Positions 1-39,568 of a stretch of DNA of 43,986 bases are shown here, piece by piece. The translations under genes and the position numbers were made by a program. Every line of letters begins with the position of its first letter. Positions within the stretch are counted from its first letter, which is position 1. A model generated the notes under the pieces. The model ran no database searches, had not been told where the DNA came from, and saw nothing but the letters and a program-made list of their open reading frames with translations. This DNA is from a virus: positions 1-43,986 of the IMG/VR virus record IMGVR_UViG_3300042540_000824. One strand, 5' to 3'.

Positions 1-46
1 CTCCCCCCTAAATGAACAGTGAACGCAACTACAGACGAGACAGGAG

Positions 47-61
47 CCCGGTGGAACCGGG
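47..61. repeat. Small hairpin in the leader of the first gene
   Basis: CCCGGT-GGA-ACCGGG is a perfect 6-bp stem with a 3-base loop. It lies about 75 bases before the first complete gene. No U-run follows it, so it is not a clear terminator. The first 137 bases hold no convincing gene; the few bases before the TGA at 13-15 could be the tail of a gene cut by the window edge. Confidence 0.3.
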
Positions 62-137
62 TTGACCAAGGAAGGGAATTTACCGGTGAGGCAGGACGCG
101 GAGCCGGTTTTCACAAACGAAAGAAAGGGACAAGGAA

Positions 138-944
138 ATGACCACAGAACTCTCAACAACAACGTCACGCGGGCTGGCGTTGCAGACGTTCGACGATGCC
201 ATGCGATTCGGGAAGATGCTCGCCGACAGCGAGTTTGCTCCCAAGGATTTTCGCGGCAAGCCAGCTAGCTGCGTGCTTGCGGTGCAGCACGGCGCCGAAA
301 TCGGGTTTGGCCCGATGCAGGCGATACAGTGCATTGCCGTCATTAACGGCCGCCCGAGCATTTGGGGCGACGCGGCCCTGGCTCTCGTCATGGCCAGCCC
401 AGTGTGCGAGTACGTCAAGGAGACCATCGAGGGCGAGGCTGACGCCGCGGTTGCTATCTGCACGGCAAAGCGAAAGGGCTACCCCGAGCCGGTGGTCGTG
501 CGGTTTTCGATGGCCGACGCCAAGCGTGCCGGGCTCGCTGGCAAGTCTGGCCCCTGGTCGCAGTACCCGAAGCGGATGCTGCAGCTGCGTGCTCGAGGCT
601 TTGCCCTGCGCGATGCGTTCCCTGACGTGCTCAAGGGCCTCGTCACGGCGGAGGAAGCCCAGGACTACGCCGCCAATCCCGAAAGCCCCCCGGTGGTTGT
701 GACGCAGCCGCAGCGGACCGAAACGCCCGCTCCGCAGCCGGTGAAGGCCGCCACAGACGCCGACATGGTCAAGGCCAAGAAGGCGATCAACGCGACGAGA
801 GATGTCGTCAAGCTGGGCGACTTTCTCGCCACGGTCAACGAGCGGTACGACGCCGGCTTCTACAGCACCGAGCAGTGCGAGGAGTTGCGCAACCTGATCG
901 ACGTGGCGATCGACGTGCTCAATGAACGCGAGGTGCCCGCATGA
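138..944 (+). CDS. RecT-like single-strand annealing protein
   Basis: 268 residues. The core at about 45-180 has the arrangement of phage RecT-type annealing proteins: a segment with GAEIGFGPMQAIQ, then NGRPSIWGDAALALV, a short beta region around EGEADAAVAICTAKRKG, and GPWSQYPKRMLQLRARGFA followed by RDAFPDVLKGL. Proteins of this family bind single-stranded DNA and anneal complementary strands during phage recombination and replication. The C-terminal ~80 residues are a Pro/Ala linker plus a helical tail. The start has an AAGGAA site just upstream. It opens the early operon, and its stop overlaps the next gene by ATGA. I see no exonuclease partner next to it. The family call rests on motif resemblance only. 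Confidence 0.6.
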   Translation: MTTELSTTTSRGLALQTFDDAMRFGKMLADSEFAPKDFRGKPASCVLAVQHGAEIGFGPMQAIQCIAVINGRPSIWGDAALALVMASPVCEYVKETIEGEADAAVAICTAKRKGYPEPVVVRFSMADAKRAGLAGKSGPWSQYPKRMLQLRARGFALRDAFPDVLKGLVTAEEAQDYAANPESPPVVVTQPQRTETPAPQPVKAATDADMVKAKKAINATRDVVKLGDFLATVNERYDAGFYSTEQCEELRNLIDVAIDVLNEREVPA

Positions 945-1234
945 GCGACGAAGCGGAGCCTCGGAACGAATTCAAATTCACTCGTAGGCGAGTAACGCCG
1001 ACGCCGTGGGACATCGAGCACGCCGCGTATCAGCGTGAGGTGCAAAAAAACATCGACCTGTGGGAAGCCGCCCAGGCGAAACGCGAGATGGCGGAATACC
1101 TGCGAGACAAGGAGCGATTTGGCAACCAGCCGCGAGTGCCCACGGTCGCCGGCTATGACGCAGCGGCAAGACGGCTCGGCTGCGAGGACGCATATGAAGA
1201 CAGCCTGAGATCTCGCTACGGGGAGGACTTTTAG
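941..1234 (+). CDS. Small charged hypothetical protein
   Basis: 97 residues, translationally coupled to the RecT-like gene by an ATGA overlap. It is rich in Arg, Glu and Asp and looks largely helical in the middle (roughly 30-65), with no membrane segment or known motif that I recognise. Its place directly behind a recombination gene suggests an early DNA-metabolism accessory role, which is inference only. Confidence 0.6.
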   Translation: MSDEAEPRNEFKFTRRRVTPTPWDIEHAAYQREVQKNIDLWEAAQAKREMAEYLRDKERFGNQPRVPTVAGYDAAARRLGCEDAYEDSLRSRYGEDF

Positions 1235-1397
1235 CCCGGCACGCGATTGCCGTAGTGGCCCGCAAGCCACGTTCGCCCCTATCGCCGGCCCAGTGGGGAA
1301 CAACGCCGGAAGTCACGCAAGGCCCATCTCCTGTAGCCGAGGCGTGACCGGACGCGGCACGTGACGCCGCCAATACAAGGACGAAAGGAGGCTCACG
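1235..1397. other. Intergenic gap with no recognised gene
   Basis: 163 bases between two early genes. I see no open frame with a ribosome-binding site, no tRNA-like fold and no strong hairpin with a U-run. The last bases hold the AAAGGAGG ribosome-binding site of the following gene. The gap separates two groups of coupled genes and may carry a promoter, but no convincing -35/-10 pair stands out. Confidence 0.4.
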
Positions 1398-1724
1398 ATG
1401 AGCAACGATTTTTACGCCCCGCCCTGCGACATCGGCCCGCTCTTCACGCAGCGAGCCCCCAGCGTCAACGGCTCAATCACGTCGGCAGCGGCTGCCGACT
1501 CGCTGTCGCCGCAAACGCTGAACGCCATGCAGCGGCGCGTGCTCGAGCTCCTGGCGGCGACGCCTGGCGGACTCACCGACGAGGAGATGCAGCGACGGCT
1601 GGGGATGAACCCGTCGACGCAGCGGCCCAGGCGGATCGAGCTTGCACGACTCGGCATGGTGGTTGAGGCCGGGACGAGGAAGACGGCAAGCGGAAGGAAC
1701 GCGAGCGTATGGAGGTGCGTCTAA
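1398..1724 (+). CDS. Winged-helix DNA-binding protein
   Basis: 108 residues. The first ~40 residues are a low-complexity leader. Residues ~42-105 form a winged helix-turn-helix: LNAMQRRVLELLAATPGGLT as helix 1 and approach, DEEMQRRLGMNPSTQRPRRI as helices 2-3, then LARLGMVVEAGTRKTASGRN and VWRCV as the wing. Such domains sense a promoter or restructure phage DNA. A strong AAAGGAGG site precedes the ATG. It is coupled to the next gene by TAATG. The DNA target is unknown; an early-gene regulator is the simplest reading. Confidence 0.65.
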   Translation: MSNDFYAPPCDIGPLFTQRAPSVNGSITSAAAADSLSPQTLNAMQRRVLELLAATPGGLTDEEMQRRLGMNPSTQRPRRIELARLGMVVEAGTRKTASGRNASVWRCV

Positions 1725-2467
1725 TGCCAACCATTGTGGCAGTGTGGCCAAACAACTCGACGAGCGTTGTGGTGATGGAGAGGGGCTGGAAGCCAATTGA
1801 CCTGTTTTACGAATTGGATCATGTCGGCGACCCAGTTTCGGCCAAGGTGTGGGTTCTAAATCGCAATCGCGGTGAGGCCGTTCACGTAACAACCGACTGG
1901 GTGCGAGAAAAGCAGTTGCCAGACATGGAATTGTCAGAGACGCATGACGCAGCCGACGTAAGCGATCGCGTTGGCCCGAAGTCGTTCGGCGTTCGTTTTT
2001 CGCTTGCGGGCGATTCAGGATCAGTAAAGCGTTTTTGCTGGCCTTCAAATATTATGCGCCAGTTTGTCTTTGCTTCATTGAGGGATCAGGTCAAGAACCC
2101 AAAGGTTGCAGAGGCAATCCTTAGCGCAGAGTGCGGAAAGATGCTGGCCGAGATTCCGCCGCCACCGCCGCCGATGCACTCCGCAAAAGACATCAACAAA
2201 ATGGATCCCTTTGCTGGCGTGTATGTCTCTTGGAATCAAGACGGAACTGCGCATTACGTCGGCGAAAGCATCAACGTCCCATCTAGGGTGCAGGCATCAC
2301 GCCCAGAAATTGGCGAAAGGATGATTGGTGTTGTGCGGTGCGACAAAAACGAGCGACTTCGGATTGAGGCTTTATTCATCGGACTTCTAAACCCGGCTGG
2401 AAACAGTCAATCGCTAGAGCGGGCGGCAGCCAGGGACTCGGCACGTTCGCGGACATCTAGCCGATAG
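1724..2467 (+). CDS. GIY-YIG nuclease domain protein
   Basis: 247 residues from the ATG that overlaps the previous stop (TAATG), with GGAGGTG seven bases upstream; an earlier in-frame ATG at 1709 is less likely. The C-terminal third carries a GIY-YIG signature: GVYV at about 165-168, HYVGES at 177-182, an Arg in the following helix (PSRVQ), and IEALFIGLLNPAGN, which supplies the expected Glu and Asn. The N-terminal ~150 residues are unfamiliar and end in a Pro run (PPPPPP). GIY-YIG enzymes cut one DNA strand per active site and include homing endonucleases and repair nucleases. The gene is clearly more AT-rich than its neighbours (27 of 60 G+C at 2041-2100 against 43 of 60 at 1501-1560), which suggests recent acquisition. 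Confidence 0.6.
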   Translation: MPTIVAVWPNNSTSVVVMERGWKPIDLFYELDHVGDPVSAKVWVLNRNRGEAVHVTTDWVREKQLPDMELSETHDAADVSDRVGPKSFGVRFSLAGDSGSVKRFCWPSNIMRQFVFASLRDQVKNPKVAEAILSAECGKMLAEIPPPPPPMHSAKDINKMDPFAGVYVSWNQDGTAHYVGESINVPSRVQASRPEIGERMIGVVRCDKNERLRIEALFIGLLNPAGNSQSLERAAARDSARSRTSSR

Positions 2468-2515
2468 GCACGAAGCCGCTTCGACGCGGCAGGGCGGAAT
2501 GGAAAGGAGGCCAAC

Positions 2516-3427
2516 ATGGCCGGTGACTGGGTAAAGATGCGTTCCGCCTTACTGGCGAACCCCAAGGTGCACGCCATAGCCAAGGCGATTGGCCGCGACC
2601 ATCGGGCCGGGGCCGCCCTGACGACCGGCTTTAGCGGCTGCCCTGACGAGGTGCTGTCACGTAACGCGTTACGTCACGTCACCGTAACGGCGTTACTGTG
2701 CGTGTGGAGTAGCGCAAACGAGCACGCAGCGGACGGAATACTGGCTTGTTGCGACCTCGAAGACCTGGACGAAATCTCTGGCGTGCCCGGTTTTGGCGAT
2801 GCGATGGCCGCTGTTGGTTGGGCCATAGCCGATACCGATGGCAAGTGCGTTTCGCTGCCTAATTTTAGCGAGCACAACACTCCGGCGAAGGACCGGACGG
2901 CGGCAGAAAGGCAGCGCCGATACAGGCAAAACCGTAACGGTGACGTAACGGCGTTACGTAACGGCGTTACTGTAACGCAGAGAAGAGAAGAGAAGAGAAG
3001 AGAAGAATATATACCTGCTGCGCAGGTAGCTACGAGCGATTCGCCTAAGCGGCGGAAACGCTCGCAGCCCCCCGATGCCGTCTCGTGGACTGCTGACGCA
3101 GGGTGGACGGGAATCACCGACGCCGACCGGCAGGAATGGGCTCAAGCCTACCCAGCGTGCGATCTGGCGGCAGAACTCGCCAAGGCGACCTCTTGGCTCA
3201 AGGCAAACCCGGCCAAGGCTCACAGGAGCAACTGGCGGCGTTTCCTCGTCTCCTGGCTGACGCGCTCGCAGGACCGTGGCGGCACGAACCGCGAGCCGGA
3301 ACGCAGGCCAGACGACAAGCCGCCGCCGAAGGCATGGAAGGACGAATACCGCCCGGCCCCATACCGCAGGCCAAAAGAGGTCGTGGCGCTTGCCAACGGA
3401 CTCAAGCTCAAGGAGGAGGATCTATGA
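2516..3427 (+). CDS. Putative phage replication initiator (DnaT/O-like), carrying iterons
   Basis: 303 residues with an excellent AAAGGAGG ribosome-binding site. The N-terminal domain (about 1-125) begins DWVKMRSALLANPKVHAIAK and continues to a winged-helix-like end WAIADTDGKCVSLPNFSEHN, a plan common in phage replisome organiser proteins. A variable basic linker follows (TAAERQRRYRQNR, then RREEKRREE). The C-terminal part (about 195-300) has an aromatic-rich motif with WAQAYPACDLAAELAKATSW and WRRFLVSWLTR, typical of DnaT-like primosome loaders. By analogy with lambda O, such proteins bind an origin inside their own gene and load helicase. Palindromic GTAACG repeats do occur inside this gene (listed separately). 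No helicase gene is visible in the window, so host DnaB would be the likely partner. Confidence 0.6.
   Translation: MAGDWVKMRSALLANPKVHAIAKAIGRDHRAGAALTTGFSGCPDEVLSRNALRHVTVTALLCVWSSANEHAADGILACCDLEDLDEISGVPGFGDAMAAVGWAIADTDGKCVSLPNFSEHNTPAKDRTAAERQRRYRQNRNGDVTALRNGVTVTQRREEKRREEYIPAAQVATSDSPKRRKRSQPPDAVSWTADAGWTGITDADRQEWAQAYPACDLAAELAKATSWLKANPAKAHRSNWRRFLVSWLTRSQDRGGTNREPERRPDDKPPPKAWKDEYRPAPYRRPKEVVALANGLKLKEEDL
2661..2696. repeat. Palindromic iteron cluster 1 (putative origin)
   Basis: GTAACGCGTTAC at 2661-2672 is a perfect 12-bp palindrome. GTAACGGCGTTAC at 2684-2696 is the same inverted GTAACG pair with one extra central base. Between them lie two further GTCAC units. All are inside the replication-initiator gene. 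Repeats of this kind inside an initiator gene are the arrangement of the lambda origin. Confidence 0.5.
2934..2977. repeat. Tandem 13-bp iteron cluster 2 (putative origin)
   Basis: GTAACGGTGAC at 2934, then two identical back-to-back copies of GTAACGGCGTTAC at 2945-2957 and 2958-2970, then GTAACG at 2972-2977. With cluster 1 this gives three exact copies of the 13-bp palindrome inside one gene. The repeats encode a Thr/Val/Asn/Gly-rich variable linker of the protein, so the DNA sequence rather than the protein is probably what is conserved. Confidence 0.55.
2981..3015 (+). repeat. Purine pentamer run and AT-rich stretch beside the iterons
   Basis: Five tandem AGAAG units (2981-3005) are followed by AATATATACC. 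A one-strand purine run next to an AT-rich patch, directly after iterons, is what a DNA-unwinding element would look like. The run encodes the RREEKRREE stretch of the initiator protein. Confidence 0.4.
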
Positions 3428-3678
3428 CCGAGACCGAAGAAATTAAAAAAGCCCCCCCTGGTCAGCCAACGGCTCGGCAGCGAGCCATTTACGACTGGGT
3501 CGTCGACTACTGCGAGACCAACGGCTACTCGCCAACGATCCGCGAGCTTCGCCTTGCGTTTGGCTTTCGGTCCAACAACTCAGCGATGTGTCACTTGCAC
3601 CCGCTGCGAAAAAAGGGGTGGCTTACGTGGCACCCGTTCAAGGGCCGCACCATCCGACCAATAGGAGGGCTCAAATGA
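3424..3678 (+). CDS. Stand-alone LexA-type winged-helix protein
   Basis: 84 residues, starting at the ATG that overlaps the initiator stop (ATGA). Residues ~15-80 match the LexA N-terminal DNA-binding domain: TARQRAIYDWVVDYCETNGY, then SPTIRELRLAFGF as helices 2-3, then the wing with LRKKGWLTWHPFKGRTIRPI. The protein ends there. The S24 peptidase/dimerisation half of LexA, with its Ala-Gly cleavage site and Ser-Lys dyad, is absent. It therefore cannot self-cleave and is probably a small regulator of phage or host promoters, or a replication accessory. The fold call is strong; the role is open. Confidence 0.75.
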   Translation: MTETEEIKKAPPGQPTARQRAIYDWVVDYCETNGYSPTIRELRLAFGFRSNNSAMCHLHPLRKKGWLTWHPFKGRTIRPIGGLK

Positions 3679-3923
3679 ACGAGGACAAGCCTTTCGATCT
3701 GCCTCCGGCATTGACCGTGGCCGAGATGTGCGTGATGCGAGCGTGGGACGACGAGACGGACGACGACTCGCGGCTCGTGCTCGAGATGGCGGAGCACACC
3801 ATACGGGCGCTGCATTGCCGCCTGGTCAAGATTTCAAAATCGCTGGAGACGACTGAAGCCGACGCTGGCGTGATGGCCAACTACATCAAGCAGCTCAGCG
3901 GCCAGAAAGGTGGTGCGGCATGA
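3675..3923 (+). CDS. Small acidic hypothetical protein
   Basis: 82 residues, coupled to the LexA-like gene by ATGA and preceded by AGGAGGG. Acidic N-terminal half with a predicted long helix (about 30-75, around LEMAEHTIRALHCRLVKISK) that could be a coiled coil. No known domain recognised. Its stop overlaps the next start by ATGA. Confidence 0.6.
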   Translation: MNEDKPFDLPPALTVAEMCVMRAWDDETDDDSRLVLEMAEHTIRALHCRLVKISKSLETTEADAGVMANYIKQLSGQKGGAA

Positions 3924-4174
3924 CCCTCGACAACGCAATGTTTCTCTGTGCTGGTGTGTTGGTAAACGGATTTGTTTTCGCCCTCGGAATCGCCGTGGGC
4001 ATTTCACTCAGAAAGGACGCTGACCATGACCGCGACAATGACGAAGCCCAAGAGGAGCCGGGCAACTGGCACCTCGATCTTGATATCGGAACTGCGCACA
4101 GCCCTGGCCTGCGTACTGCAGGCGGTGCCGGCCAGGAGCCCAAAGCCGATCCTGACAAACGTGCTCCTCTGTGA
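3920..4174 (+). CDS. Small membrane protein overlapping the sliding clamp gene
   Basis: 84 residues. It has one clear transmembrane segment near the N-terminus (about 7-29, FLCAGVLVNGFVFALGIAVG), followed by an acidic, probably disordered tail. It is coupled to the previous gene by ATGA. Its last ~150 bases lie inside the start of the dnaN-like gene in another frame, an unusually long overlap. The membrane segment lies before the overlap, so the gene is plausible; the reading of its tail may simply be constrained by the clamp gene. Confidence 0.5.
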   Translation: MTLDNAMFLCAGVLVNGFVFALGIAVGISLRKDADHDRDNDEAQEEPGNWHLDLDIGTAHSPGLRTAGGAGQEPKADPDKRAPL

Positions 4175-5138
4175 TGGCAGCATGACGGGCACCGACCTCG
4201 ACGTGACGATTCGCACGCCGCTGGACTATACGGGCGAGCCGCTGCTGCTGCCGGCCGTGCGGCTGCAGGCAATTCTCGGTGCGGCAACCGGTGACGAGGT
4301 GACGCTGACGCCTGACGGCACCAGCTGCACCATCCAGGCCGGAAACGGTACGTGGCGCCTGCCGACGGAGAACGCGGCAGAGTTTCCAAGAAACACTACG
4401 CCATCCGGTGCCACCAGTGTTGGTCGACTTCCCTGCGACCAGTTCCGCACGCTCGTAGGTGCGGTGCGATTTGCCACCGACAGCGAGAGTAGCCGTTTTG
4501 CTCTTGCCGGCGTGATGGCAGAGTTCAAGGACGGCGAGCTCTCGTTTGTGGGCACCGATGGGCGCCGCATGTGCGTAGCCTCGGCCGACGTGGACCAGGA
4601 CCTCGACGAGTCGCAGACGCTTATCCCGCGTCGTGTGGTCGACATCCTGTACCGGCTGGCGTCAGGACATGACAGCATCCAGCTCGAGCGGACGAGCACG
4701 CTGGTCGTCGGTACCATCGGCGAGACGATTGTGTCGGCACGCCAGATCGAGGGTCGGTTTCCCAAGTGGCGAGACGTTGAGCCAACACGCGATCACGTGA
4801 AGGCATCGTTGGTACAGGTCGGACCGCTACTCCATGCGTGCGAGATGGCGGCCATCTGTGCCAGCGAGGACAGCAAGGGCGTCACGCTGACCTTCGGGCC
4901 GAATGGCATCTTCATGCAGGCCAGGTCGAGCTCATTTGGCGAGAGCAGCGCCACGTGCGAGGTCGTGGAATCTGGCACCGAATGCACCGTGGCCATCGAC
5001 CCGCGCTTCGCGGTTGAGTGGCTGCGGCAACTTGACGCGGCTGAGACAGTGGAAGTCGAAGCCGAAAACGCATCGGCTGCGGTCGTGTTTCGGGCCGAGA
5101 ACATCCGAAACGTCGTGATGCCGTTGGCCAAAGATTGA
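4026..5138 (+). CDS. dnaN: DNA polymerase III beta subunit-like sliding clamp
   Basis: 370 residues from the ATG at 4026 (AGAAAGGA upstream), the usual length for a bacterial beta clamp. It shows the threefold plan: domain 1 with PILTNVLLCDG and GTDLDVTI; domain 2 opening with LPCDQFRTLVGAVRFATDSE then GVMAEFKDGELSFVGTDGRR; domain 3 with EGRFPKWRDVEP, VEVEAENASAAVVF and the C-terminal VVMPL region that in clamps forms part of the protein-binding pocket. A dimer of this protein encircles DNA and tethers polymerases and repair enzymes. It is full length with no frameshift. A phage-encoded clamp is uncommon. No DNA polymerase is seen in the window, so it would have to serve the host replicase or a phage protein with a clamp-binding peptide. 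Confidence 0.85.
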   Translation: MTATMTKPKRSRATGTSILISELRTALACVLQAVPARSPKPILTNVLLCDGSMTGTDLDVTIRTPLDYTGEPLLLPAVRLQAILGAATGDEVTLTPDGTSCTIQAGNGTWRLPTENAAEFPRNTTPSGATSVGRLPCDQFRTLVGAVRFATDSESSRFALAGVMAEFKDGELSFVGTDGRRMCVASADVDQDLDESQTLIPRRVVDILYRLASGHDSIQLERTSTLVVGTIGETIVSARQIEGRFPKWRDVEPTRDHVKASLVQVGPLLHACEMAAICASEDSKGVTLTFGPNGIFMQARSSSFGESSATCEVVESGTECTVAIDPRFAVEWLRQLDAAETVEVEAENASAAVVFRAENIRNVVMPLAKD

Positions 5139-5440
5139 TGAACGACCAAGAGCAAATCGTTTGTGACATGTGGAATGCCGGCTCGCCTGTGCCGGAAATC
5201 GCCAGGCGGGCCGGCATCGGCAAGGACGCGGTTTTTAAGTGGGTTAAAAGGCTTGGAATGCCAACCAATAGACGAGTTGCATACCAAGACAGCGAACGCA
5301 ACCCAAACAACCCGGGCTTAGAGAAAATCGAGATTTTGAAGCGTGAGTTGCGTGAACAGCACTACGCGAAACGAAGAGCCGAAACGCATATCCAGACCGA
5401 TAGCAGGGTGTTGAAGGAACGCGAAAGGCTGCGTGCATGA
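5138..5440 (+). CDS. Helix-turn-helix protein with coiled-coil tail
   Basis: 100 residues, starting at the ATG of a TGATG overlap with the clamp gene. Residues ~5-42 are a homeodomain-like helix-turn-helix of the resolvase/transposase type (MWNAGSPVPEIARRAGIGKD then AVFKWVKRLGM). The rest is basic and helical (about 60-100). Position shortly before the terminase large subunit makes a small-terminase-like, DNA-recognising role possible, but it is equally consistent with a regulator. Confidence 0.6.
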   Translation: MNDQEQIVCDMWNAGSPVPEIARRAGIGKDAVFKWVKRLGMPTNRRVAYQDSERNPNNPGLEKIEILKRELREQHYAKRRAETHIQTDSRVLKERERLRA

Positions 5441-5559
5441 CCGACTACGAGCGCAGCCTGTACGACGCCGAGATCCACAAGCTGCTGGCTGAGGTGGCCA
5501 AGCTGCAGGCGCAGATCGCCGAGCTCACGGCCCAGCTTCTCGACCAGGAGGGCGACTGA
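5437..5559 (+). CDS. 40-residue coiled-coil miniprotein
   Basis: Reads MTDYERSLYDAEIHKLLAEV at its N-terminus and then a leucine/alanine heptad pattern (VAKLQAQIAELTAQLL). The start overlaps the previous stop by ATGA and the stop overlaps the next start by TGATG, so it sits exactly inside a coupled chain, which supports real translation. A short two-stranded coiled coil is the likely structure; the partner is unknown. Confidence 0.6.
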   Translation: MTDYERSLYDAEIHKLLAEVAKLQAQIAELTAQLLDQEGD

Positions 5560-5921
5560 TGGGACGCATGAGCCGCCAGAAGGGCAAGCGTGGCGAGCGT
5601 GAATGCGCCGCTGAGATGGCCGCCGTATTTGCGCTGACCTATGGGGTCGACGCTCGGCGTGGCGTACAGCACCAAGGCGGGCCCGACTCGCCTGATGTCG
5701 TTCTCGATGGTGTGCCAGTTCACATCGAGGCCAAAAGGGTCGAGTCGCTGAATCTCTACAAGGCGATGGACCAGGCACGCGAGGATGCAGGCGAGAAGTT
5801 GCCTGTGGTGTGGCATAGACGCAACGGCAAGCGATCTGTGGTCATCGTGGACACAGAAGACCTTGTGGCTCTTGCGCGTGCCATCGTGGCAGCACGGGCC
5901 AATGCGGTGGCTGAGTCGTGA
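5559..5921 (+). CDS. PD-(D/E)XK endonuclease, Holliday-junction-resolvase-like
   Basis: 120 residues. KRGERECAAEM supplies an N-terminal Glu, SPDVVLDG the Asp, and VHIEAKRVE the E-x-K pair, in the order expected for a PD-(D/E)XK nuclease. AMDQAREDAGEKLPVVWHRR followed by SVVIVDTEDLVAL is the typical C-terminal part of small phage resolvase-like proteins. It would cleave branched or replication-derived DNA and could help resolve concatemers before packaging, which fits its place directly ahead of the terminase. The nuclease fold is well supported; the substrate is inferred. Confidence 0.7.
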   Translation: MGRMSRQKGKRGERECAAEMAAVFALTYGVDARRGVQHQGGPDSPDVVLDGVPVHIEAKRVESLNLYKAMDQAREDAGEKLPVVWHRRNGKRSVVIVDTEDLVALARAIVAARANAVAES

Positions 5922-5930
5922 CGCGAACGG

Positions 5931-5979
5931 GTGACGCAAAATGCAAAGTGCCGCCAGAATGGCAGTGACGCAGAATGCA
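5931..5979 (+). repeat. 15-bp direct repeats before the terminase (possible packaging site)
   Basis: GTGACGCAAAATGCA (5931-5945) and GTGACGCAGAATGCA (5965-5979) differ at one base and are 34 bases apart. A TGCC...GGCA inverted repeat lies between them, and a third GTGACGC is at 5918. The 136-base gap (5922-6057) has no gene longer than 26 codons. Repeats directly upstream of a terminase gene are candidates for terminase-binding (cos or pac) elements. Confidence 0.4.
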
Positions 5980-6057
5980 GCGGGTCCTCCCCGGCCGTGG
6001 CCCCTAGTCGGGCTCGTCGATCCGGCAGAAAAATATAAGTCGTGAAGGCTGCCCACC

Positions 6058-16746: not shown

Positions 16747-17964
16747 ATGCCGCGCGTCCAAAACAAACGAGGCACCGCCGCTAACCTCGCGAGCGTCAAT
16801 CCGACGCCAGCGGCGGGGGAGGTCATTTGGGAGAGTGACACCAACCGGCTGAAGATTGGTAACGGCACTGACGCCTACACCTCGCTCGCCTACGTTGGTG
16901 CGAACAGCCCGACGTTCACGGGGCAAGTGACAGTAGCGGCAGGCAGCGCGTCGGCTCCTGCGATCACGCCGACCGGGGACGCAAACACCGGACTATTGTT
17001 TCCTGCCGCTGACACCGTGGCGATTTCGACCGGCGGATCGGAGCGAGTGCGAGTTAGGGACAACGGCGTTGTGCGCTATGTTCCGATCGCGACCGAGCCA
17101 TCCACCGCAGAGGCCGGCGACCTGTACTACCACTCTGGTTTGCGGCGAATGCGGATATACAACGGATTCCGGTGGCAGAGCCTCGCCGTGGCGGGTCAGG
17201 AGTGGAATGTGTCGGCCGCGTCGTTTGTGAGAAGTTTCAGCGTTGGGTCGCAGGAGGCCACGCCGCTTGGGATTTTTTTCAAGCCGGATGGCCTCAAATT
17301 GTTCGTTGTTGGCAACACCTCCGACAGCGTGCATGAGTATCACCTGACGATTGCGTGGGACATTTCGACGGCTGCCTTCTCGCAGTCGTTCAGCGTGCAA
17401 ACGCAGGACACCAGCCCAACAGGGTTGTCGTTTAGGACTGACGGCACAAAAATGTACATCGCTGGCGACACAGGCAACGACATCAACGAGTACACCCTCA
17501 GCACTGCGTGGGATATTTCCACTGCGTCGTATGCGCAGGCATACATAATTAACGCGCAGGAATCCAGCATGTCTGGGATCTACTTCCGCGCGGACGGCCT
17601 TAAGGTCTACATGACAGGAGTCGCGAGCGACAACGTAAACGAATATACGCTGTCGTCCGCGTGGGATATCTCTACTGCCACGTTTGTTCAAGCGCTTAGC
17701 GTGGCTTCGCAGGAGACGCAGCCGCAGGGCGTGTTTTTCAAGCCCGATGGCAGGCGGATGTACATCGTGGGGAATATTGGCGACGACGTGACGGAGTATG
17801 ACCTGTCGACAGCGTGGAACATTTCTACTGCGGTCTACAACACCGAGCGGAGCGTGCAGGCTCAAGACAATGATCCGCGATGTGTTTATTTCCGCCCGGA
17901 TGGGCTGGCGATGTACATCGTCGGCACTCAAAACGACCAAGTCCACCAATACACTCTCCAGTAG
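16747..17964 (+). CDS. Five-bladed beta-propeller fibre tip protein
   Basis: 405 residues. The N-terminal ~50 residues resemble a fibre-base module (PRVQNKRGTAANLASVNPTP, GEVIWESDTNRLKIGNGTDA). Residues ~55-150 are a fibre shaft (SPTFTGQVTVAAGSASAPAI, GLRRMRIYNGFRWQSL). From ~151 to the end there are five tandem units of 51 residues with the core P-x-G-x-x-F-x-x-DG, then EYxLSxAWDIST. The last unit is half length and its missing half (EWNVSAASFVRSFSV) is found at the start, the 'velcro' closure of a circular propeller. It is probably a receptor- or glycan-binding tip. Confidence 0.7.
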   Translation: MPRVQNKRGTAANLASVNPTPAAGEVIWESDTNRLKIGNGTDAYTSLAYVGANSPTFTGQVTVAAGSASAPAITPTGDANTGLLFPAADTVAISTGGSERVRVRDNGVVRYVPIATEPSTAEAGDLYYHSGLRRMRIYNGFRWQSLAVAGQEWNVSAASFVRSFSVGSQEATPLGIFFKPDGLKLFVVGNTSDSVHEYHLTIAWDISTAAFSQSFSVQTQDTSPTGLSFRTDGTKMYIAGDTGNDINEYTLSTAWDISTASYAQAYIINAQESSMSGIYFRADGLKVYMTGVASDNVNEYTLSSAWDISTATFVQALSVASQETQPQGVFFKPDGRRMYIVGNIGDDVTEYDLSTAWNISTAVYNTERSVQAQDNDPRCVYFRPDGLAMYIVGTQNDQVHQYTLQ

Positions 17965-34288: not shown

Positions 34289-35463
34289 CAGAGGCGGTGG
34301 CTGAGAGGCTGCCGCCCCCGAAGGCCGACGCACCTACCGAGCAGGTGACGCAGCGGCACGAGGGCGACGTGCTCGAGGCCCGCAGCACAAGCCGCAAGAT
34401 CAAGACAGTCGAAGACCTGCTCGCCCACATCGAGGCCGACATGACCCGCTACGAGGTGGCGGCGAGCGAGGCCACGAAGTGGGAGGTGGGCACCAGCGAC
34501 GGCAAGGGCGGCACCACCGTCACCGAGTTGCACCGCGTCTTCGTGCGACTCAAACCCAAGGCCGGGCCCACGACCCGAGAAGTGGTCGACGCCATGATCG
34601 CCGGGGCCAAGGGCATCGCCCGGCCCAAGGTCAAAAAGACCAGGGCCACCAAGGCCGAGAGCTTTGCCGTGCTCGTCGTCGCGGACACACATTTTGGCAA
34701 GTATGCCTGGAGCGAGGGCACAGGCCACGACGACTACGATCTCGCCATCGCCGCCGACAGGGTGGCCGCGGCCTCGGGTCGCCTGCTCGACACGCTCGCC
34801 GCCTACAAGCCCGGCCGGGTGCTGGTGGCATACCTCGGCGACCTGTTTCACGCCGACACGCCGGGGCTCACCACGACCGGCGGCACGCCCCTGGCGGGCA
34901 GCACCGACGGCCGCCTCCAGAAGATGATAGGCATGGGGTGCGACTCGTTGCTCGCCATCGTCGAGAAGGCCGCCGGCATCGCTCCCACCGACGCACTGGT
35001 CGTCAACGGCAATCACGACGAGACGCTGTCGTGGGCATTCCAAAGAATCTTGGCCGAGCGGTTTCGCAACGATGGCCGAGTCGCCGTGTCAGGGGCCTAC
35101 ACGGGTCGGCAATACATCACGTACGGCCGCAACCTGCTGGGGTTTGCTCACGGCCACAAGGCGAAGAAGAAGCTGCCGCAGGTGATGGCGCTAGAGCAGC
35201 CGGCCGCGTGGAGCCTCTGCCCGTATCGCGAGTGGCACACGGGCCACCTCCACCACCAATCGGCGGAGTGGAGCCGGCCGATTGAAACGATTGAGGGCGT
35301 GCTCGTGCGGATTGCGCCGTCGCTCTCGCCGCCCGACGATTACCACGCGGTCAACGGCTGGGTGGGACAGCGCGAGGCGATGGAGGCTTTCGTCTATGAC
35401 GCCGCCGGCGGGCTGTCGGCCATGCACGTGGCAGGCCCTCGCATGGGAGGCAGCCATGAGTGA
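34267..35463 (+). CDS. Metallophosphoesterase (calcineurin-like)
   Basis: 398 residues. Residues ~135-345 contain the full set of metal-binding motifs: DTHFG (140-144), YLGDLFH with Asp192, NGNHDE (247-252), and GHLHH (326-330). The N-terminal ~130 residues are a charged helical region. Enzymes of this group include Mre11/SbcD-type nucleases and phosphodiesterases. Its neighbours (zinc protease, nucleotide pyrophosphatase-like) suggest nucleic-acid or nucleotide metabolism. The start lies inside the previous gene, so they are co-translated. Confidence 0.75.
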   Translation: MAQQKRLAEAVAERLPPPKADAPTEQVTQRHEGDVLEARSTSRKIKTVEDLLAHIEADMTRYEVAASEATKWEVGTSDGKGGTTVTELHRVFVRLKPKAGPTTREVVDAMIAGAKGIARPKVKKTRATKAESFAVLVVADTHFGKYAWSEGTGHDDYDLAIAADRVAAASGRLLDTLAAYKPGRVLVAYLGDLFHADTPGLTTTGGTPLAGSTDGRLQKMIGMGCDSLLAIVEKAAGIAPTDALVVNGNHDETLSWAFQRILAERFRNDGRVAVSGAYTGRQYITYGRNLLGFAHGHKAKKKLPQVMALEQPAAWSLCPYREWHTGHLHHQSAEWSRPIETIEGVLVRIAPSLSPPDDYHAVNGWVGQREAMEAFVYDAAGGLSAMHVAGPRMGGSHE

Positions 35464-36100
35464 GCGCCTCACGCCCGAGTACCTCAACGAGGTGCGACAG
35501 CGAAAGAACAAATACATGGGCCAGTGGACCGGCACCGCCGGGTCGCTCGCCGCTGACTGCCATCGGTTGTTGACGGAAAGGGAATTGCTACTCAAGGAGC
35601 TCAGAGAAATGCAGGACGAACTCGACACACTTCCACGCGCCGCCCATGCCGCCCTCGAGGTGGGACCGGTGGGCATCACCAGCACCGACGACATTCCGGT
35701 CGATTGGATTTTGCGGGGCGAGCGGGCCCTGAAGGATGGCCGGCATGACGAGCCGGAACGGCGGCCGCTGGGTGCGGCGGTGATTCACGACGACGGCCTG
35801 CGGCCAGGATCGCGTGAGTTTATTGACGTGCTCGACGAGCTGCGCGAGTTACATCTCAAAAAAACGCGAGATTATGGGGAAGACCAAGACGCACTCGCCA
35901 ACATTCGCAACGGTGCTGATGTCGTTGCCATCGACGCTTGGAAGGCGTGCCTGATTCGCATGGCCGACAAAATGCAGCGGCTCAAGGCAGCCTGCCACAA
36001 CGGCCGCGTGGAATTTGACGGCATCCCCGACACCTTGATGGATCTCGCGGCCTATAGCGTGATCAGCCTGGTTCTCTACCGCGAAACCCAGCGGCCATAG
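35456..36100 (+). CDS. MazG-like / all-alpha NTP pyrophosphohydrolase family protein
   Basis: 214 residues from an ATG overlapping the previous stop region. N-terminal third is a coiled coil (LAADCHRLLTERELLLKELR). Residues ~120-210 are helical with DVLDELRELHLKKTRDYGED, WKACLIRMADKMQRLKAACH, then DGIPDTLMDLAAYSVISLVL, the arrangement of phage proteins distantly related to MazG/dUTPase-type NTP pyrophosphatases. An EDxxDxxxx-type metal site is only partly evident (LMDLAAY). It may trim the nucleotide pool or affect ppGpp-type signalling. Confidence 0.5.
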   Translation: MSERLTPEYLNEVRQRKNKYMGQWTGTAGSLAADCHRLLTERELLLKELREMQDELDTLPRAAHAALEVGPVGITSTDDIPVDWILRGERALKDGRHDEPERRPLGAAVIHDDGLRPGSREFIDVLDELRELHLKKTRDYGEDQDALANIRNGADVVAIDAWKACLIRMADKMQRLKAACHNGRVEFDGIPDTLMDLAAYSVISLVLYRETQRP

Positions 36101-38451: not shown

Positions 38452-39568
38452 CCACCTGCCCAGTTGGCGGGCCATGCTGGCGGCGGCGCTGCTCCTGGCA
38501 GCGGCGTTTGTAGGAACGCAGTCATGGCGGGCCATCGGATCGCACCCGCTCGCGGCCCACTTCGGCTGGTCGCCAGACCCAGCCGCCACGCGGCAGCTGC
38601 TCGAGGAGCTGGGCGACGAAAAGTATTTCTCGCAGGCTGCAGACGAGGCGATGCAAAAGGCGTCTGGCACTGACACGTTTCTCTACCGGGCGATGAACCG
38701 CGCCCACCAGGCCCGCTACGGCCGCCCGTTCGTGGTCGGCCGGCAACTGATCGGCGACTGTGTGGCATGGGGAGCCATGCACGCCGTCTACTGTTCCGAG
38801 GCCCTCGACTGGGATCTCGGCAAGACGAGCGAGCCGCCACTCGTGCCGGCCACCGAAAGCATCTACGGCGGATCGCGAGTCGAGGCCCGTGGCAAAGCCG
38901 GCGACGGCAAAAGCCCAGTGGGTGGATACAGCGACGGCAGTACGGGATCGGCCGCGGCCCGTTGGCTGCGCGACTGGGGCGTGGTCTATCGCAAGGCGTA
39001 CCCCTCGGCCGACTTGACGACCTACAGCGGCGACCGAGCCAAGGCGTGGGGCGCCTACGGCAACGGCGGCCAGGGCGACAACGGCCGGCTGGATGCCGTG
39101 GCGAAGAAGGCCCCGGCCCGTCATGTGGTAAACGTCCGCACGTGGGAGGAACTGTGTGCGGCGATCGAGGCCGGCTTCCCCGTGACGATCGCGTCAAGCG
39201 TTGGCTTCGCCAGTGGCGACCGTGACGCCGACGGATTCTGCGCCGCCCGCGGAACGTGGATGCACCAGATGTGCATTGTGGCGGTCCGCTATGCGAAGAA
39301 CGCCAAGGCCGACACCGCCCGCCCGCGCGACGGTGCCCTCGTGATGAATAGCTGGGGCAAATACCTCGGCGGCCCACGCTGGCCGGCGGATATGCCCGAA
39401 GGGTGCTTCTGGGCCGAGAAGGCCGACATCGTCCGCATTTTGAATCAGCAGGACTCATGGGCGATCGGATCGGTGGTGAGCGGCTTCACGTGGCGGGACA
39501 TCCACCACGGCGAATGGCTGGCACCATTTCCGCCCGACGCCCGCATTTCGTTTCTGGAGGCCCCATGA
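38435..39568 (+). CDS. Papain-like cysteine protease with signal anchor (candidate lysis enzyme)
   Basis: 377 residues from the GTG at 38435 (GAGGG six bases upstream); an earlier in-frame GTG at 38414 lies deeper in the previous gene. A signal anchor (about 11-29, WRAMLAAALLLAAAFVGTQS) shows export. The catalytic layout is that of papain-fold enzymes: Gln104 and Cys109 in RQLIGDCVAWGAMHAVYC, His277 in WMHQMCIVAVRY, and Asn305 in LVMNSWGKYLGGP. Length suits an N-terminal pro-region plus mature domain. In this location, behind membrane proteins and ahead of other secreted ones, it is a candidate host-wall or envelope protein degrader in place of a muramidase. No classic endolysin (GH24, amidase, CHAP with NlpC motif) is seen elsewhere. 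Confidence 0.7.
   Translation: MTHRSSHLPSWRAMLAAALLLAAAFVGTQSWRAIGSHPLAAHFGWSPDPAATRQLLEELGDEKYFSQAADEAMQKASGTDTFLYRAMNRAHQARYGRPFVVGRQLIGDCVAWGAMHAVYCSEALDWDLGKTSEPPLVPATESIYGGSRVEARGKAGDGKSPVGGYSDGSTGSAAARWLRDWGVVYRKAYPSADLTTYSGDRAKAWGAYGNGGQGDNGRLDAVAKKAPARHVVNVRTWEELCAAIEAGFPVTIASSVGFASGDRDADGFCAARGTWMHQMCIVAVRYAKNAKADTARPRDGALVMNSWGKYLGGPRWPADMPEGCFWAEKADIVRILNQQDSWAIGSVVSGFTWRDIHHGEWLAPFPPDARISFLEAP

Follow-up and report, generated by a model that had tools for sequence, protein, structure and literature searches.

The locus studied here raises the question of whether the gene of a phage replication initiator may also contain the DNA on which its own product acts. To our knowledge, only a handful of temperate phages have mapped replication origins. 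A preliminary description of the 43,986-nucleotide viral stretch analysed here (IMG/VR record IMGVR_UViG_3300042540_000824, positions 1–43,986, hereafter the window) had placed a putative origin inside an initiator-like gene, on the plan of lambda O/ori, and this prediction is now supported by the match of the gene product to phrog_2509 as well as by the conservation of codons among its relatives. Judging from sequence comparison, it appears very probable that the stretch 2661–3028 is the replication origin of this phage, lying within the coding sequence of its own initiator. The parts of this stretch follow one another as two arrays of inverted GTAACG half-sites, a strand-asymmetric purine tract, a short AT stretch and an inverted repeat, and their conservation is apparent at the DNA level.

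The initiator gene and its neighbourhood

The initiator gene occupies positions 2516–3427 of the forward strand and encodes a protein of 303 amino acids, which matches phrog_2509, annotated as replication initiation protein, with an E-value of 9.4e-36 and gave no match in Pfam or NCBIfam. Its AlphaFold2 model comprises a confidently predicted N-domain (residues 1–143), a disordered linker with pLDDT below 50 (residues 144–183) and a C-domain (residues 189–253). The PDB contained no sequence relative of the protein, and fold comparison with solved structures returned nothing significant either for the whole protein or for the N-domain alone. When the N-domain was compared with a viral fold library, the matches below 0.001 were uncharacterised or unnamed viral proteins, and phage primosomal and replisome-organizer proteins appeared at weaker E-values. 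A tblastn search with the window initiator reached epsilon15 at 1e-14, the N-domain being homologous to that of the epsilon15-type initiators. No known family was matched by the C-domain; its assignment to the DnaT type was considered and dropped, since profile comparison gave no support.

A gene encoding RecT (138–944) is found near the initiator gene, which is directly followed by a gene (3424–3678) for an 84-residue LexA-type DNA-binding protein comprising little beyond the LexA DNA-binding domain. Further downstream lies a gene for a phage-encoded DNA polymerase sliding clamp (3972–5138), and beyond it the terminase, portal and capsid genes. No recognisable loader gene of the P or DnaC type adjoins the initiator gene in the window, the LexA-type protein and the sliding clamp being encoded there instead; several relatives carry a DnaC- or P-like loader gene directly 3' of the initiator. 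In a scan of positions 1–6000 no promoter was recognised, and the terminator-like hits obtained in the same region were at chance level, one of them corresponding to the inverted repeat described below, read on the other strand. No RNA families were found.

The ORF located directly upstream of the initiator gene (1709–2467, 252 amino acids; VYVSWN...HYVGES...RIEALFIGLLNP) looks by eye like a GIY-YIG nuclease and matched nothing in Pfam or PHROG. Elsewhere in the window, the product of positions 16747–17964 resembles a tail fibre and contains a major tropism determinant N-terminal domain (Mtd_N, 1e-11). Among bacterial genomes, the nearest relative of the N-domain (68%) was detected in a metagenome-assembled genome of a Planctomycetia bacterium (L129), a sequence match hinting that the host of the window phage might be a member of the Planctomycetota.

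Two clusters of inverted half-sites

Ten GTWAC half-sites occur in the initiator gene, all of them within positions 2661–2976 and gathered in two clusters (2661–2696 and 2934–2976) separated by about 270 bp. The window as a whole contains 34 such half-sites, 24 of them outside the initiator gene, and no other stretch of 355 bp holds more than three. Cluster 1 consists of the 12-bp sequence GTAACGCGTTAC (2661–2672, half-sites at 2661 and 2668) and one copy of the 13-bp palindrome GTAACGGCGTTAC (2684–2696, half-sites at 2684 and 2692), both with conserved codons. Cluster 2 opens with a lone GTAAC on the forward strand (2934–2938), continues with two directly abutting copies of GTAACGGCGTTAC (2945–2957 and 2958–2970) and ends with a final forward GTAAC (2972–2976), the start of which lies 7 bp before the purine run.

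The preliminary description had listed the palindromes at 2684, 2945 and 2958 and the shorter variant at 2661, with coordinates that proved exact, and the extra half-sites that it mentioned are confirmed as the GTAAC copies at 2934 and 2972. It had taken the 13-bp palindrome itself as the repeat, a view that we had to abandon. The unit common to the family is the half-site, which reads GTAACG in more than 90% of cases and which, within the GTWAC class, is found at spacings of 5, 7, 8, 11, 12 and 14 bp and in several orientations. The repeats had also been assigned to a loosely constrained linker of the protein, which is accurate for cluster 2 (residues 144–183) and mistaken for cluster 1, since the latter encodes residues 49–60, which lie in a helix predicted with confidence within the folded N-domain.

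Such a pattern could in principle be a by-product of the protein sequence and of codon bias, arising from a low-complexity linker (VTV, RN, REEKR) and a slippage-prone microsatellite. Synonymous shuffles that preserve the protein fail to reproduce the sites: among 20,000 synonymous-codon shuffles of the initiator gene the mean was 3.4 and the maximum 9 GTWAC sites, and when codons were drawn from the usage of the phage itself the mean fell to 1.3 and the maximum to 6, against the 10 observed.

Conservation of the pattern among relatives

Among five close homologues, the codons of conserved residues were identical in 50 of 50 cases in cluster 1, in 51 of 57 in cluster 2 and in 50 of 50 in the purine run, against 366 of 552 (66%) elsewhere in the N-domain and 325 of 476 in the C-domain, a contrast that is still plain although these homologues are interrelated, not independent, and nominal P values overstate it. 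Conservation of the palindromes above the codon background of homologous genes had been proposed beforehand as a sign of an origin, and it turned out to lie far above that background, the purine run behaving likewise. The opposite case, in which the protein is kept and the palindromes are lost, did not appear among the closest relatives that share this N-domain. All relatives whose N-domain is at least 50% identical over at least 120 residues keep at least four GTWAC sites, and the relatives without these sites have either another N-domain or another half-site word in the same kind of places. Nor were the same peptides seen with random synonymous codons among close relatives, as would be expected if the sites simply followed from the protein. 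GC skew, a further check suggested in the preliminary description, showed no extremum at the site and gives no support either way.

In order to define the wider distribution of the pattern, 206 genes were gathered from IMG/VR, GTDB genomes and GenBank phages and reduced to 137 non-redundant members, epsilon15 included; named phages among the relatives comprise epsilon15, CP2, phiPSA1, PAN70 and TL-2011b. The best of six half-site words was determined for each gene in relation to synonymous shuffles, giving GTWAC in 66 genes, GCGGAC in 46, GTSAC in 16, GTAGAC and GTGGCGC in 4 each, and CGGAC in 1. Enrichment of the word reached P ≤0.01 in 102 of the 137 genes, a count somewhat inflated by picking the best of six, and the GTGGCGC calls were not significant. 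The word was present at least twice in both early-gene and linker positions in 112 of the 137 genes, and 22 of the 137 displayed the linker cluster only. In genes of the window and epsilon15 types the early cluster precedes a conserved helix, and in those of the CP2 type it lies in the loop after this helix. This location at differing places of the fold argues for a role of the early cluster as DNA and not as peptide, and the fact that cluster 1 encodes structured residues, whose position in the fold differs between subfamilies, stands equally against a by-product of a low-complexity linker.

Six members (L063, L123, L135, L225, L228 and L240) mix GTWAC and GTSAC half-sites and may be intermediate stages of a shift in specificity.

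Purine run, AT stretch and inverted repeat

Behind cluster 2, the coding strand displays a run of 29 purines (2979–3007) of the form (AGAGA)n, AGAGAAGAG...AGAA, joined by the AT stretch AATATATA (3006–3013), which is short in the window. Both elements had been reported after the repeats in the preliminary description and are indeed present. Together they include the most A+T-rich 30 nucleotides of the gene (2983–3012), with TATATA following the 29 purines. The locus closes with a perfect inverted repeat, TACCTGC-tgc-GCAGGTA (3012–3028), which shows compensatory variants paired in both arms, namely TACCGGC/GCCGGTA in the relative L004 and AACCTGC/GCAGGTT in L129.

Of the 137 relatives, 129 have the purine run on the coding strand, and an equally long pyrimidine run was found in 4. 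In the main iteron classes, the commonest distance from the start of the last half-site to the run is 6–9 bp, and across the family A+T content is highest, at 0.67, in the 10 nucleotides after it. Within the 60 nucleotides that follow the run, 53 of 109 members had a perfect stem of 6 bp or longer and 30 of 109 one of 7 bp or longer, versus 17.8% and 8%, respectively, of control windows, the controls being other 60-nucleotide windows from the same genes. Runs of at least four C, often paired, were also observed within these 60 nucleotides in 40 of 109 members, about 10 being expected, which makes them roughly fourfold commoner there than in other parts of these genes; they were considered as a separate element and dropped, many of them being arms of the inverted repeat and some not.

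For the purine run, a by-product of coding would fit the fact that the codons GAA/GAG, AAA/AAG and AGA consist of purines only, and the length of the run differs among relatives, as expected from slippage. However, arginine is encoded by AGR in 299 of 310 cases (96%) inside the purine stretches versus 357 of 2275 (16%) elsewhere in the same genes, and the encoded peptide varies (REEKRREE, PEEEEEE, KEEK) while the purines are kept. Together with the shuffles and the codon comparison, these observations make a coding by-product extremely unlikely as the source of the pattern, and the preferred reading is that of an origin.

The signature formed by the run extends beyond the family of the window. 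Eighty viral contigs were selected solely by AGAGAAGAGAAGAGAAGAGA; the initiator family of the window was identified in at least 48 of them, 8 of the 10 tested contigs outside this family matched replication families, and initiator-like genes were present in most of the sample, which indicates that the purine-run signature reaches further than the family itself. We put forward, as a conjecture that we hold more doubtful than probable, that (AGAGA)n behind iterons might be an origin element in its own right, acting as a repeated single-strand loading site with a role like that of the bacterial DnaA-trios, common to phage initiators whose DNA-binding domains are dissimilar in sequence. If this were true, the run and the iterons would make phage origins readable from sequence in thousands of genomes.

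The same (AGAGA)n run occurs in initiator-like genes that belong to other families, including those of L210, L221, L226, L231, L248, L259, L273 and L280, among others. In such genes the run often stands behind repeats of their own, for instance TCCCGA in L221 and L222.

Iterons travel with the N-domain

The iteron class changes 18 times on the N-domain tree, against 59.5 changes with shuffled labels. In 17 pairs of genes with alike C-domains and unlike N-domains, the window among them, the iteron class was the same in none, and relatives with the N-domain type of the window joined to unrelated C-domains keep GTWAC. Over the whole N-domain family, with identities down to 30–40%, the class was the same in 1991 of 4885 pairs, so that specificity appears to have changed several times within the family. 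The association of sites and N-domain is in part a matter of physical linkage and not of independent co-evolution, since both share the same DNA.

The half-sites might alternatively be operators, at which the initiator or the LexA-type protein (3424–3678) would bind and repress the early operon; in that case both hairpin and purine tract would be incidental. The presence of a LexA DNA-binding domain protein encoded directly 3' of the initiator would fit such a role, as would the early position of cluster 1 within the gene, at which a transcriptional roadblock could arise, and iteron-binding initiators often autoregulate. Nevertheless, the class of site follows the initiator N-domain throughout the family, and no LexA-type gene is listed beside the initiator in the annotated stretches of named relatives such as epsilon15, PAN70 and phiPSA1. 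Moreover, the sites lie deep inside the gene and not at a promoter, none being recognised in 1–6000, and repression leaves no role for the last half-site abutting the purine tract, for the AT peak or for the inverted repeat. We therefore regard an operator function as an improbable explanation of the locus, and the reading as an origin is preferred.

Some relatives have the C-domain and the hairpin in common with the window and a different N-domain, so that module junctions fall in the linker, and N-domain exchange has been reported in the initiators of Gordonia phages, in a study that does not mention origins (PMC10684548). Both facts would suit repeats serving recombination, which would mark the exchange point for swaps of initiator domains between phages. 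Nonetheless, the iterons are replaced along with the N-domain and hence cannot be the common sequence for the exchange, and distant relatives with unrelated C-domains keep the iterons; we consider it very unlikely that recombination is what the repeats serve. If the locus is an origin, as we prefer, initiator and origin would move together in phage recombination because the sites lie within the DNA coding for the N-domain and the linker, and the module junctions between recombining phages would fall just past the purine tract.

Seven relatives with the same C-domain and another N-domain (L014, L017, L018, L020, L025, L027 and L028) display the linker repeats GTAGAC, GTGGCG/CGCCAC, GTCCGG and CGTCAC, with a purine tract that is present or broken by C.

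Proposed mechanism and significance

By analogy with lambda, the N-domain would bind the half-sites as dimers, and the nucleoprotein assembled on cluster 2 might strain and open the adjoining purine/AT tract, one of the exposed strands being captured after opening. The C-domain, tethered by the disordered linker, could then recruit a helicase loader or the helicase, in the way that P and DnaB are brought in by lambda O. The contribution of cluster 1 is the least certain step; most likely it would act as a second array looped to cluster 2 or as a control array for copy control.

One origin anatomy would be readable in the initiator genes of a large family, to which the model phage epsilon15 belongs along with prophages of Proteobacteria, Planctomycetota and Verrucomicrobiota. 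The elements of this anatomy, two arrays of one iteron word, a run of purine pentamers, an AT stretch and an inverted repeat, provide precise and testable origin coordinates. The specificity classes of a single domain (GTWAC, GTSAC, GCGGAC and GTAGAC) offer material for studying how recognition changes, and the locus may serve as an example of a self-contained initiator-plus-origin module swapped between phages. We found no paper describing this origin in a literature search that covered few subscription journals, so that an older account of the epsilon15 origin may exist. As far as the papers and records found allow us to say, a bipartite iteron array on the lambda plan throughout an initiator family has so far been undescribed.

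Comparison with known systems

The closest parallel in layout is the origin of lambda, our knowledge of origins of this type being drawn from PMC7466680, PMC5043065 and PMC6022878. In the lambda record (Lambdavirus, NC_001416), gene O contains four annotated iterons at 39034–39118, followed by AAAAGAAAAAAGAAAAGA, TTATT and an inverted repeat on TCAGAG...CTCTGA, the same order of parts as in the window. The likeness drawn in the preliminary description thus extends further than proposed, an inverted repeat following the AT tract in both. The lambda origin and the one predicted here both lie in the DNA that codes for the linker of the initiator, and both contain several inverted-repeat iterons. 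The A+T-rich tract of lambda consists almost entirely of purines on one strand (PMC5043065), and lambda O has an N-terminal DNA-binding domain and a C-terminal domain binding the loader P, with a flexible linker between them (PMC6022878). The window departs from lambda in its half-site, since GTAACG is not the lambda iteron, in splitting its half-sites between two clusters about 270 bp apart, where lambda has a single array, and in lacking a P-type gene beside the initiator. Pairwise BLASTP detected no similarity between lambda O and the window initiator (E 0.24), which belong to different PHROGs, and therefore the two follow the same plan with different families of initiators.

The origins of iteron plasmids of the RepE/RepA type likewise combine iterons with an AT-rich opening region. 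Their iterons are mostly direct repeats, specific to each replicon and bound by monomers (PMC5043065); the window differs in that its half-sites are short, inverted and located inside the gene, and in that the protein has no Pfam match. Phage replisome organizers and Lin1244-type initiators showed a weak fold likeness to the N-domain in the viral library (E-values mostly between 3e-3 and 0.4), yet no sequence similarity to it was found and their repeats are other ones.

By descent, the nearest systems are the initiators of epsilon15, CP2, phiPSA1, PAN70 and TL-2011b (phrog_2509 or phrog_9474), annotated as 'replication initiation protein' or 'primosomal protein I'; the record of the epsilon15 initiator region, where the gene spans 35179–35856, has no origin annotation. 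The epsilon15-type genes share with the window a homologous N-domain, two clusters of a single half-site word, a purine run and an AT stretch, although the half-site word of epsilon15 and phiPSA1 is GCGGAC, unlike the GTWAC of the window. The C-domains of epsilon15 and TL-2011b are of the DnaT type (PF17948 in epsilon15), whereas that of the window has no match and those of the CP2 and phiPSA1 types give no DnaT match either. This variation among phrog_2509-type initiators implies that a DnaT-type C-domain does not define the N-domain family. We conclude that the locus in the window is a lambda-type origin, its origin activity being predicted, embedded in an epsilon15-type initiator gene.
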